Of a DNA stretch of 64,000 nucleotides, positions 12,132-64,000 are shown piece by piece. Source of the stretch: Sulfuritalea sp. GTDB taxonomy: Bacteria; Pseudomonadota; Gammaproteobacteria; Burkholderiales; Rhodocyclaceae. The notes beneath the pieces are model-generated. The model did not search any database and was not told where the DNA came from. It saw nothing but the letters and a program-made list of their open reading frames with translations. Made by a program: the position numbers and the translations under genes. The number at the start of each line of letters is the position of its first letter. The stretch's first letter is position 1. The stretch is taken from assembly GCA_030680805.1 (NCBI GenBank), contig JAUXUK010000064.1:1-64000 (forward strand), written 5' to 3'.

Positions 12132-12981
12132 CGGGCAGTTTCACGTAAATGGGCGCCATGGCCTCGTTCTGGGTAATTTCGATCAGAGCCTCGCGCGCCA
12201 GTTCGAGCAGGGCGAGAAAGCTCACCACCAATCCCTGGGCGCCGAGGGTCAGGTCGAACAACTGGTCAAACACCACGTAACCTCCGCCCTGCAGGCGCCG
12301 CAGGATAATGCTCATGTGCTCGCGCACGGACAGCTCCTCGCGGTGGATCTTGTGGTGCTGATGCACCCTCGCCTGCTTCATGAGCGACAGCCAGGCGACT
12401 TGCAGATCGTGCAAGCTTACCTCGGGTTGGCGCTCCGCGACCTTGTCAGCGATCCACACGGTGATCCACTCGTAATCGCGCCCCGCCTGCGGCATTTCAT
12501 CGAGCTTGGCCGCCGAGGCTTTCATGCGCTCGTATTCGATCAGGCGGCGCACCAGTTCGGCACGCGGATCTTCCGGCTCGCCATTCTCGGCCTTGGGCGG
12601 GCGCGGCAAGAGCATGCGCGACTTGATCTCGATCAGCATGGCCGCCATCAGCAGGTATTCGGCCGCGAGTTCGAGGTTGCCCTTGCGCATCGCCTCGACA
12701 TAGATCAGATACTGCGCCGTGAGCGGCGCCATCGGGATGTCGAGCACGCTGATGTTGGCCCGGCGGATCAGGTACAACAGCAAATCGAGCGGGCCCTCGA
12801 AGGAGTCGAGGATGATCTCCAGCGCATCCGGCGGGATGTAGAGGTCGCGCGGCATTTCGGCCAGAAACTCGCCATAGACCTTTGGCAGATGCGCCACGGC
12901 GGCGGCCTCGAAAGTCGGCGCTGGCGCGCTCTGCGTACCTGGGATTCCGCTTTGCGGGCAGGTAACGGCGTTTTCGATCAC
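12115..12981 (-). CDS. scpA: Segregation and condensation protein ScpA
   Basis: ScpA is the kleisin subunit of the bacterial condensin. The 288-residue product has the N-terminal SMC-binding region with the family signature [24 protein letters not shown], then [13 protein letters not shown] and a C-terminal winged helix ([19 protein letters not shown]). I chose the GTG at 12981, whose GTGA overlaps the trpS stop by 4 nt. Upstream codons would lie inside trpS. The first 45 residues are variable and include one copy of the dispersed motif (at 12911), encoding PAPTFE. Confidence 0.93.
12911..12926 (+). repeat. Dispersed 25-bp motif, copy 1 (core only)
   Basis: An exact 16-base core AAAGTCGGCGCTGGCG in the + orientation, inside the 5' end of scpA on the opposite strand. 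The 3' half of the consensus has diverged. Confidence 0.7.
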
Positions 12982-14180
12982 GAGTAGTCCAGCCCGATTG
13001 CTTCGCGCACGTCGCGCATGGTTTCCTGCGCCAGCTTGCGCGCTTTTTCGCAACCATCCGCAATGATGTTCCTGACCAGTTGCGGATCTTCCTCGTACAT
13101 CTTGGCCCGTTCACGCATCGGTTCCTGTTCCCGCAGCACGCCTTCGATCACCGGCTGCTTGCATTCGATGCAGCCGATGCCGGCCGAGCGGCAGCCGCCC
13201 TGCACCCAGGTCTTGACCTCTTCGCTGGAATAGATCAGATGAAATTGCCACACCGGACATTTGTCGGGGTCACCCGGATCGGTGCGCCGCACGCGCTGCG
13301 GATCGGTCTGCATGGTACGAATCTTCTTGCCGACAATGTCGGCATCTTCACGCAGCGTGATGGTATTGCCGTAGGACTTCGACATTTTCTGGCCATCGAG
13401 CCCCGGCATGCGCGAGGCATGGGTCAGCAGCGCATCGGGTTCCACCAGAATCATCTTGCGCGAGCCTTCCAGCCAGCCGAACAGGCGCTCGCGATCACCC
13501 AGGGAAAGGCTCTGTGCCTCGTTGAGCAGTTGGTGTGCCTGCTCCAGCGCTTCATCTTCTCCCCGCTCCTGGTAGCTGGTGCGCAACTCGTCGTAGAGCT
13601 TGGCGCGCTTGCTGCCAAGCTTCTTGACCGCCTCGCGCGCCTTGTCCTCGAAGCCCGGTTCGCGACCGTACAGGTGGTTGAAACGGCGCGCGATCTCGCG
13701 CGTGAATTCAACGTGCGGCACCTGGTCATCGCCCACCGGCACGCGATTGGCCCGATAAATGAGGATGTCGGCGGCCTGCAGCAGCGGATAGCCGAGAAAG
13801 CCGTAGGTCGTCAGATCCTTGTGCGACAGCTTCTCCTGCTGGTCCTTGTAGGTCGGCACGCGCTCCAGCCAGCCCAGCGGCGTCATCATCGACAGCAGCA
13901 GGTGCAGCTCGGCGTGCTCGGGCACTTTGGACTGGATGAAGATGGTCGCCTGGGAGGGATCGACCCCGGCCGCCAGCCAGTCGATGATCATGTCGTTGGC
14001 GTTGTCGGTAATCGTGCCCGGCTCGTCGTAGGCAGTGGTCAATGCATGCCAGTCCGCAACGAAGAAAAGACAGGGATACTCGTGCTGGAGCTTGACCCAG
14101 TTGGCAAGTACGCCGTGATAGTGGCCGAGGTGGAGTCGCCCGGTGGGGCGCATGCCGGAGAGAACTTTTTCTGCGTACAT
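12978..14180 (-). CDS. trpS: Tryptophan--tRNA ligase
   Basis: A class I aminoacyl-tRNA synthetase charging tRNA-Trp. The 400-residue product has the HIGH-type motif HLGHYHG near residue 17 and the KMSKS motif GQKMSKSYGN near residue 265. It is longer than the roughly 335-residue E. coli enzyme because of an inserted helical segment (YGREPGFEDKAREAVKKLGS onward), seen in many betaproteobacterial TrpS proteins. It begins 1 nt after the site-2 protease gene ends, and its stop overlaps scpA by 4 nt, so the genes form one operon. Confidence 0.96.
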   Translation of the reverse strand: MYAEKVLSGMRPTGRLHLGHYHGVLANWVKLQHEYPCLFFVADWHALTTAYDEPGTITDNANDMIIDWLAAGVDPSQATIFIQSKVPEHAELHLLLSMMTPLGWLERVPTYKDQQEKLSHKDLTTYGFLGYPLLQAADILIYRANRVPVGDDQVPHVEFTREIARRFNHLYGREPGFEDKAREAVKKLGSKRAKLYDELRTSYQERGEDEALEQAHQLLNEAQSLSLGDRERLFGWLEGSRKMILVEPDALLTHASRMPGLDGQKMSKSYGNTITLREDADIVGKKIRTMQTDPQRVRRTDPGDPDKCPVWQFHLIYSSEEVKTWVQGGCRSAGIGCIECKQPVIEGVLREQEPMRERAKMYEEDPQLVRNIIADGCEKARKLAQETMRDVREAIGLDYS

Positions 14181-14181
14181 T

Positions 14182-62623: not shown

Positions 62624-62690
62624 CGTCATTCCCGCGAAAGCGGGAATCCAGAGGTGTGGCACTGGATTCCGGGTCAAGCCCGGAATGACG
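62624..62690. repeat. REP-like inverted pair (BIME)
   Basis: CGTCATTCCCGCG/AAAG/CGGGAATCCAG (62624-62651) faces CTGGATTCCGGG/TCAAG/CCCGGAATGACG (62662-62690). It is the same family as the pair at 56866 and lies between the fadN-like and thiolase genes. Confidence 0.85.
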
Positions 62691-62704
62691 GATCAGTGTG
62701 AGTC

Positions 62705-64000
62705 TCAGTTGCGAACCGGCTTGCCGGTCTGCATCATGCCCATGATGCGTTCCTGGGTCTTGGGATGGTTCAGCAGTTCCATGAAGGCCTTGCGCTCCAG
62801 GTCGAGCAGCCACTGTTCGCTGACCAGGCTGCCCTGGTCGACGTCGCCGCCGGACACGATGCTGGCGATCATCTGCCCCAGCTTGAAGTCGTGGGCGGAG
62901 ATGAAACCGCCATCGCGCATGTTGACCAGTTGCATCATGATGGTGCCGATCGCATAGCGGCCGGCCACGGGAACCAGCTTCTGCAACGGAGGACGGTAGC
63001 CGGCATCGAACATGGCCCGCGCTTCCACCTTGGCCACATGCAGCAATTCGTAGGGGTTGAAGACGATGACGTCGTCGGCTTTGAGATAGCCCATTTGCCG
63101 TGCCTCCAGCGCCGACTTCGATACCGCGGCCATCGCCGCATGGGTGAAGTAGGTCTTGAGGAACTGCAGCAGGTCATTGCCTTTGGCATCGGCCGCCGCA
63201 CGCAATGCGGCTTCCTTCAAGCCGCCGCCGGCCGGGATCAGGCCGACGCCGACTTCGACCAGGCCGATGTAGGACTCGATCGAGGCGACACGCTTGGCGG
63301 CGTGCAGCGCCAGTTCGCAGCCGCCGCCCAGCGCCAGGCCGGCCCCCGCGGCGACCACCGGCACGTTGGCGTACTTCATGGCCTGGAAGCAGGCTTGCAG
63401 CTTGGCGACTTCCGGCTCGATGGCCTTGACGCCGCCCGACATGAACAGCGGCAGCATGGCCTGCAGGTCGGCGCCGGCGGAGAAGGCGCCGCCTTCGGCC
63501 GCGTCTGCACCCCAGATCACCAGCCCCTTGTAGTTGGCCTCGGCCTCGGCGATGGCCTTGTCCAGGCCGGTGATGACGCCGGCGCCGATGGCATGCATCT
63601 TGGTCTTGATCGAGAAGATCAGCACCTCGTCACCCTGGTGCCAGATGCGCACCGACTCGTCCTCGAACACCGTGGTGCCGGCCTTGGTTCCGTCGGCCGC
63701 TCCCTCGCCCAGAACCGGCGCACGGAATGGCTGGCGGGCATAGACCGCGAGCGTGGAACGCGACACGTTGGCCTTGCGCGCCGGCGACCAGGAGCCGTCT
63801 GCGGCGTGCACTCCGCTACGGCCGTCGAACACCCAGGCCGGCAGCGGTGCGGCGCACAGCGCCTTGCCAGCGTCGATGTCCTCCTTGACCCAACCGGCGA
63901 TCTGCTGCCAGCCGGCCGCCTGCCAGGTCTCGAACGGCCCCAGCTTCTGGCCGAAGCCCCAGCGCATGGCGAAGTCGACGTCGCGCGCGTTGTCGGCGAC
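62705..64000 (-). CDS. 3-hydroxyacyl-CoA dehydrogenase/enoyl-CoA hydratase (FadN-type), C-terminal part
   Basis: The gene runs off the right edge; 431 residues are visible. The visible part begins in a 3-hydroxyacyl-CoA dehydrogenase C-terminal domain (NARDVDFAMRWGFGQKLGPFE). It then continues into a crotonase domain (VIWGADAAEGGAFSAGADLQAM, GAGLALGGGCELALHAAKRVASIESYIGLVEVGVGLIPAGGG). Dehydrogenase before hydratase is the order of B. subtilis FadN rather than E. coli FadB. With the thiolase downstream it supplies beta-oxidation steps 2-4. A dispersed-motif copy encodes KSALEARQMG. Confidence 0.92.
   Translation of the reverse strand, partial: VADNARDVDFAMRWGFGQKLGPFETWQAAGWQQIAGWVKEDIDAGKALCAAPLPAWVFDGRSGVHAADGSWSPARKANVSRSTLAVYARQPFRAPVLGEGAADGTKAGTTVFEDESVRIWHQGDEVLIFSIKTKMHAIGAGVITGLDKAIAEAEANYKGLVIWGADAAEGGAFSAGADLQAMLPLFMSGGVKAIEPEVAKLQACFQAMKYANVPVVAAGAGLALGGGCELALHAAKRVASIESYIGLVEVGVGLIPAGGGLKEAALRAAADAKGNDLLQFLKTYFTHAAMAAVSKSALEARQMGYLKADDVIVFNPYELLHVAKVEARAMFDAGYRPPLQKLVPVAGRYAIGTIMMQLVNMRDGGFISAHDFKLGQMIASIVSGGDVDQGSLVSEQWLLDLERKAFMELLNHPKTQERIMGMMQTGKPVRN
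63095..63119 (-). repeat. Dispersed 25-bp motif, copy 13
   Basis: The reverse complement reads GAAGTCGGCGCTGGAG, GC, ACGGCAA, about 21/25 like the consensus. It is in the crotonase part of the fadN-like gene. Confidence 0.65.

Follow-up and report, generated by a model that had tools for sequence, protein, structure and literature searches.

Why should the same short stretch of DNA recur, in both orientations, inside and between unrelated genes along a single bacterial contig? The question is raised by a 64,000-nucleotide stretch of a Sulfuritalea sp. genome (GenBank assembly GCA_030680805.1, contig JAUXUK010000064.1, positions 1 to 64,000; hereafter the window), which is contig C78 of a 3.14-Mb draft genome that is 86% complete. 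The original prediction, made from the letters of the window, had listed 13 copies of a 25-bp word. Twelve of these 13 places proved to be matches to AAAGTCGGCGCTGGCGNNACGGCGA at 0–3 mismatches, with positions and strands as listed, and 100 dinucleotide-preserving shuffles of the 64-kb window contained none. The place at 12911 retains the first 16 bases exactly and lacks the second half, making it a half copy. Recounting by eye returned the same seven exact 16-mers and ten AGTCGGCGCTGG cores that had been tallied. Of the three explanations that had been offered without a choice among them, a DNA uptake signal fits best. We consider it somewhat probable that these copies form the chromosomal side of a DNA uptake system with sequence specificity. 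The word would then be a functional counterpart, independently arisen in this betaproteobacterial family, of the DNA uptake sequence (DUS) that Neisseriaceae use and of the uptake signal sequence (USS) known from Pasteurellaceae.

The word is abundant beyond the window. The genome containing the window holds 231 exact copies of the 14-mer AAAGTCGGCGCTGG and 0 copies of the reversed pattern; at ≤2 mismatches, ARTCGGCGCTGGCGNNACGGCG occurs 440 times and its reversed control 0 times. All 31 genomes of the Sulfuritalea-like genus carry ARTCGGCGCTGGCGNNACGGCG at ≤2 mismatches, with 52–732 copies each and 0–3 for the reversed controls. Outside the genus, the exact 14-mer is absent from 28 of 30 sampled relatives, and the other two have 1 and 2 copies. 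Allowing ≤3 mismatches, we also scanned the family in 121 genomes sampled from a larger group. At least 75 copies were present in 15 of them, representing 9 of 68 genera; two genomes were borderline (G166 with 44 copies and G109 with 32), and the remaining 104 had ≤27, mostly close to the reversed-control counts. The word-rich genus g47 is divided between G076, with 75 copies, and the less complete G136, with 2. The density in word-rich genomes is ~100–200 per Mb. Among the matches listed for the full word in public contigs, many are metagenome-assembled genomes labeled Sulfuritalea, Rhodocyclaceae, Sulfurisoma, or Rugosibacter, and a few are labeled differently, for example as Rubrivivax or Gammaproteobacteria.

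Alignment of the copies defines a bipartite word of 22 to 26 bp, RRARTCGGCGCTGGCGRYACGGCGA, in which two conserved blocks lie ~16 bp apart. The site contains ~35 bits of information (236 copies from stretches of two species). A purine- or A-rich start is followed by ARTCGGCGCTGGCG, a soft purine, a nearly free base, ACGGCG, and a weak A; the near-invariant blocks are A(R)TCGGCG and ACGGCG, and similarity among copies ends outside ~26 bp. The mismatch spectrum is bimodal, with 27, 21, 8, and 8 matches at 0, 1, 2, and 3 mismatches in 400 kb of genome G000 versus 0, 0, 0, and 1 for the reversed control.

The other word-rich genera, with GC contents of 52 to 64%, have this consensus in common (samples of 4 to 16 copies each), apart from two genera that use dialects. 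In one of these, the word terminates in ACGGCA (23 of 24 copies in G072 and 5 of 5 in G132); in the other, the first block reads GTCGACG (6 of 6 copies in G098). The word has also been lost. Low counts were found in three genomes of the Sulfuritalea-like genus (G017, 52; G022, 147; G025, 209), and in a five-gene tree built without G025, several internal nodes of which are weakly supported, G017 and G022 nest within the word-rich clade, indicating at least two derived losses. G017 keeps relics of the word with 1–3 mismatches, and no 11-mer in 210 kb of this genome is comparably over-represented as a replacement. Loss of ComEC or DprA was ruled out as the cause in G017, as both are present.

Within the window, the word resides in genes of unrelated Pfam families and in gaps between genes. 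On the forward strand, the half copy (12911–12926) lies beside an scpA-like open reading frame (ORF), and full words occur in genes for an FMN/FAD oxidoreductase (20362–20386, 2 mismatches), an ArnT-like protein (37257–37281, 2 mismatches), a DegT/ArnB-like protein (38993–39017, 1 mismatch), a PhoH-like protein (45053–45077, 3 mismatches), and an AMP-binding, AACS-like protein (54577–54601, 2 mismatches). On the reverse strand, words lie in a PHP-domain gene (15778–15802, 2 mismatches), an rmlD/rfbD-like gene (25481–25505, exact), a parC-like gene (27703–27727, 1 mismatch), and an enoyl-CoA hydratase-like gene (63095–63119, 3 mismatches). Pfam matches were compatible with the names originally given to these carriers: PHP, FMN/FAD oxidoreductase, RmlD, topoisomerase IV/gyrase subunit A, ArnT, DegT/ArnB-like, PhoH, AMP-binding, and enoyl-CoA hydratase, with ScpA for the ORF adjoining 12911. 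Independent gene calling likewise placed three copies in intergenic DNA: 30240–30264 (reverse strand, exact), 31783–31807 (forward strand, exact), and 57018–57042 (forward strand, 1 mismatch). The first 12.9 kb indeed contain no full word, an absence that carries little meaning as a signal: gaps in the sampled genome average 6.0 kb, with a 95th percentile of 17.5 kb.

Could chance, codon bias, or a shared protein motif produce such a pattern? The commonest reading of the word within genes, VGAG, is an easy peptide. It accounts for 45 of 102 in-gene copies, several other frames are used, and SRRW is rare (2 of 102), the pattern that a signal acting at the DNA level would show if proteins tolerated it only in places. 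When codons were shuffled synonymously (30 shuffles each), exact copies averaged 0.0 in G000 (408 genes) and 0.03 in G002 (356 genes) versus 18 and 22 observed; with 1 mismatch, the called genes of G000 contain 19 copies versus a mean of 0.33. Intergenic DNA is enriched in words, which make up 26 of 76 copies in G000 versus 12% of the DNA (P 7e-7) and 28 of 80 in G002, with 2 edge cases omitted, versus 16% (P 4e-5); the coding fractions are approximate, coming from a home-made codon-usage gene caller. The argument that protein homology cannot explain the word therefore holds, given the several frames, the intergenic copies, and the disappearance of the word on codon shuffling. Together with the near absence of the exact 14-mer from the sampled relatives outside the genus, these results reduce the probability of chance, codon bias, or a protein motif as the origin to next to nil.

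We compared word sites with their equivalents in relatives, leaving out orthologue matches that did not span a word site. At the four coding sites aligned (25481, 27703, 37257, and 38993), the relatives are mostly gapless through the word core and differ by substitutions, and at 38993 the equivalent in the outgroup G043 is both wordless and gapless. Exceptions exist. Several alignments at 27703 and 37257 have gaps beside the core; at 27703, there is a 3-base gap at the word end in G022 and a gap within the leading A run in G013, and at 38993, G006 has an insertion inside the word. Alignment was also tried at the intergenic sites 30240 and 31783, which align poorly or not at all with relatives.

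The comparison between two species, G000 and G002, in sampled DNA was confined to G000 words at ≤2 mismatches with alignable surroundings, and unalignable sites drop out. All 15 such words in G000 are words in G002 as well (≤2 mismatches), with no gap in the word. Identity at these sites is 97.7% at the fixed positions, 83.3% at the two free positions, and 82.8% in the flanks; random sites gave 84.9% (42 of 150 alignable). Where it can be traced, the word is conserved at each base although the DNA around it is slightly permissive, and it arises in place by base substitution, not by insertion, in samples that are small (four coding sites and 15 aligned sites). The DUS of Neisseria is described as likewise conserved amid permissive surroundings (PMC2397512).

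These alignments bear on whether the word is a dispersed mobile micro-element, of the repetitive extragenic palindrome (REP), RPE, or miniature inverted-repeat transposable element (MITE) kind, copied by insertion. Near-identical copies in both orientations would suit such an element, as would half words in the main contig of G072 (L397–L405), which also occur in 54-bp hairpin units at three places, one of them with tandem units 54 bp apart; a full dialect word follows each. The coding orthologues are mostly gapless, none of the 15 aligned sites has a gap in the word, and the copies have nothing in common beyond ~26 bp. The word is also not palindromic; the original prediction had noted that, unlike REP, it is not a strong palindrome. 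Precise insertions against empty sites were not encountered, and mobile insertion was rejected; this explanation, one of the three first offered, is contradicted and highly improbable.

Some DNA lacks the word. In the single-contig genome G002, one gap of 62.9 kb in 600 kb is word-free, with a chance probability of ~9e-7 for a stretch fixed in advance. This island has a lower GC content and holds a TnsB-like transposase, an E1-E2/JAB protein, and sulfatases. In G072, contigs C2 and C3 contain 0 and 1 words in 149 and 100 kb versus 28 in 200 kb of the main contig, and this deficit (1 word in 249 kb) has a Poisson P of ~2e-14. Both contigs carry TraC-, TraG-, and TraI-type genes and are probably conjugative plasmids on that account. 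In Neisseria, DUS are reported to be absent from recently acquired genes (PMC2397512). We additionally observed that the E1-E2/JAB protein of the G002 island is encoded by a single 807-aa ORF with Prok-E2_A, ThiF, and JAB domains (PADLOC E1-E2, JAB) near the TnsB-like gene (L379:12408–14828; G002:C1 ~472–475 kb). This ORF is possibly a ubiquitin-like defense gene on a Tn7-like element.

Elsewhere, the word recurs roughly once per 5–6 kb on both strands. The strands are about equally used in all 31 genomes of the genus, the most uneven word-rich genome having 309 versus 411 copies. When G002 is divided into 20-kb tiles, 17 of the 20 examined have words on both strands, and 600 kb contain 120 copies, 62 minus and 58 plus. 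Complete plus-strand polarity was considered for G002 and rejected, as its sequence holds words on both strands. The strand bias relative to replication that the original prediction had proposed to test for did not materialize: the sampled parts of G002 (0–0.6, 1.0–1.1, and 2.0–2.1 Mb; 0.8 of 3.8 Mb) show neither a replichore strand bias nor regional clustering. With the island included, G002 has 5 pairs closer than 500 bp versus 14.9 expected. Outside the island, the coefficient of variation (CV) of its spacing is 0.80 versus 0.98 for random placement, and there are 13 pairs closer than 1 kb versus 30.7, with 0 of 5000 simulations as low. Drive has been described as a process that should lead to an even distribution of USS (PMC7811141).

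A chromosome-wide word could instead be the binding site of an intracellular chromosome-organizing or nucleoid protein, selected on the whole chromosome and not on plasmids. A bipartite 35-bit motif resembles a protein site, and both its base-by-base conservation and its near absence from the two contigs with conjugation genes would be consistent with this role; even USS spacing was itself interpreted in this way by Karlin (cited in PMC1939737). The sampled G002 DNA has no regional difference and no replichore strand bias, and the dialects and repeated losses would require that cells can readily do without the architectural factor. The sites known to us (matS, SlmA, Noc, KOPS, and parS) number in the tens or are polarized. 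We therefore regard this nucleoid or segregation site, which the original prediction had also listed, as rather unlikely, though the strongest of the alternatives.

The uptake explanation best accommodates the occurrence on both strands, the intergenic excess, the origin by substitution, the dialects, and the near absence from two conjugation-gene contigs and an island. In such a system, the word would be bound at the cell surface by a receptor, possibly one of the type IV minor pilins, and ComEC, DprA, and RecA would serve to import and recombine word-bearing fragments of kin DNA. Word-bearing alleles would be preferentially reimported; words would then accumulate and be repaired by molecular drive wherever proteins tolerate them, and would fail to colonize DNA that is not exchanged between kin. 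A lineage that loses the receptor or its specificity, as G017 perhaps has, would stop repairing its words, which would decay.

The search for competence genes that the original prediction had suggested gave a divided answer: ComEC, pilins, and mostly DprA were present, and ComEA was mostly not found, nor was a receptor identified. ComEC was found in all 23 genus genomes examined, as a fragment in G022, and DprA in 28 of 31, with no match in G001, G005, and G014. N-methyl pilins are encoded in all 31, and PilE/FimT/PilW-like minor pilins, read from sequence, in the three genomes looked at. One of these proteins, a PilE-like minor pilin of G002, has four cysteines; compared with solved structures, it matched 20 pilins, none of them named ComP. 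As a marker for ComEA, TIGR00426 was discarded, having matched only ORFs of ≥550 aa. By hand count, 57 of the 106 family genomes that are not word-rich have ≥2 HHH_3 matches, not all of which are necessarily ComEA. Across the 121 family genomes, word richness and extra HHH_3 (ComEA-like) matches are inversely associated.

Two alternatives follow: a different protein, which may be the specific receptor, stands in for ComEA, or the word does not serve uptake. We tentatively entertain, as a possible but somewhat doubtful extension of the first alternative, that Sulfuritalea's GTDB family is a third, independent lineage of self-recognizing DNA uptake, characterized by a long bipartite word, dialects, and ComEA-independent entry, in which ComEA was lost together with the gain of a sequence-specific receptor. 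Word-rich genomes would then tend to lack ComEA because this nonspecific periplasmic receptor was lost alongside the gain of the specific one.

Several observations weigh against uptake. No receptor for the word was identified in the genomes examined, and only 3 of the 15 word-rich genomes have, by hand count, an HHH_3 match outside an ORF of ~800 aa, which we take to be Tex. G005, the genome of the genus richest in words, is 99% complete and has no DprA match; G017, in which the word has decayed, retains ComEC, DprA, and pilins, its ComEC and DprA genes being open, so these genes do not account for the decay. The plasmid evidence derives from a single genome, and so does the island evidence. 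With the island kept, words in G002 are spaced less evenly than random placement would give (CV 1.21), and in G000 close pairs are not lacking (4 vs 5.0) and evenness is a trend only, 9.9% of simulations being as low. The word is longer and rarer than known DUS and USS. Inverted DUS pairs are common in Neisseria; inverted pairs of the word number 0 in G000 and G002, and G072 has two weak ones. The literature covered, which excludes most subscription papers, yielded no mention of competence or of an uptake word for any of these genera, and among the matches listed for fragments of the word, the papers are unrelated by title. Finally, some phage genes carry the word: at least 120 stretches of viral contigs (IMG/VR, L246–L365) contain it exactly.

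The phage genes raise one further explanation, namely that the word is a self-recognition mark for a defense or DNA-processing machine, either Chi-like or exempting its bearer from defense. Near absence from conjugative contigs and the island, combined with presence in some phage genes, gives the impression that the word could be relevant to invaders. Ten word-bearing viral ORFs were scanned. Five matched PHROGs, which included large polyvalent-type proteins as well as a methyltransferase and an anti-repressor; the other five were without a match. The density in the viral stretches is low, at ~47 per Mb beyond the one copy by which each stretch was fetched, and the strand polarity typical of Chi is missing. 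To our knowledge, no defense system reads a word of such length. We consider a self-mark quite improbable.

Two other repeats were observed. In G000, GAGGCGCAGAG occurs in 20 copies versus 0.2 expected, which take either orientation and are often paired at a distance of 8 bp (L131:10420–14892; L138:7116; L139:14346–14407; L141:8907–12128); it is REP-like and unrelated to the word. G022 contains an array with a CRISPR-like period, consisting of eight copies of TCACTGGGATA at a spacing of 66–68 bp (L200:10693–11168).

The significance of an uptake word here would lie in its rarity. One source describes uptake words as known only in Neisseriaceae and Pasteurellaceae, the two bacterial families credited with using a genomic word to tell their own DNA from foreign DNA during uptake (PMC12616744). 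Should the word not serve uptake, it would be a DNA signal spread through whole genomes, with a sharply defined ~35-bit site, which would be at least as unusual.

How, then, does the word compare with known systems? The matS, KOPS, SlmA/Noc, parS, and Chi sites are chromosome-specific words read by proteins and are regional or polarized; the word resembles them in being chromosome-specific, and differs in being neither regional nor polarized in the sampled DNA. REP- and MITE-like repeats, similarly, occur as many dispersed near-identical copies, whereas the word is non-palindromic, common within genes, and arises by substitution. AAAGT and CGG are found in both the word and the USS, in which AAAGT includes a flanking A, and this overlap is probably a coincidence. 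Like the USS, as described in PMC7811141 and PMC1939737, the word has a core with weaker flanking positions and accumulates by substitution; the even distribution of the USS (same sources) is clear for the word only in G002 outside the island. It differs from the USS in sequence, GC-richness, second block, and density, at roughly one per 5–6 kb versus ~1 per 1 kb for the USS (PMC7811141). The DUS of Neisseriaceae has an unrelated sequence of 9–12 bp (PMC12616744) in ~1,900 copies (PMC2397512), versus ~22–26 bp and a few hundred copies for the word, for which ComEA was mostly not found and no receptor was identified. What the word has in common with the DUS, as described in PMC3630211 and PMC2397512, is that both are dispersed, non-palindromic, and present on both strands in genes and gaps, form dialects among related taxa, are absent from recently acquired DNA, and are conserved amid permissive flanks.

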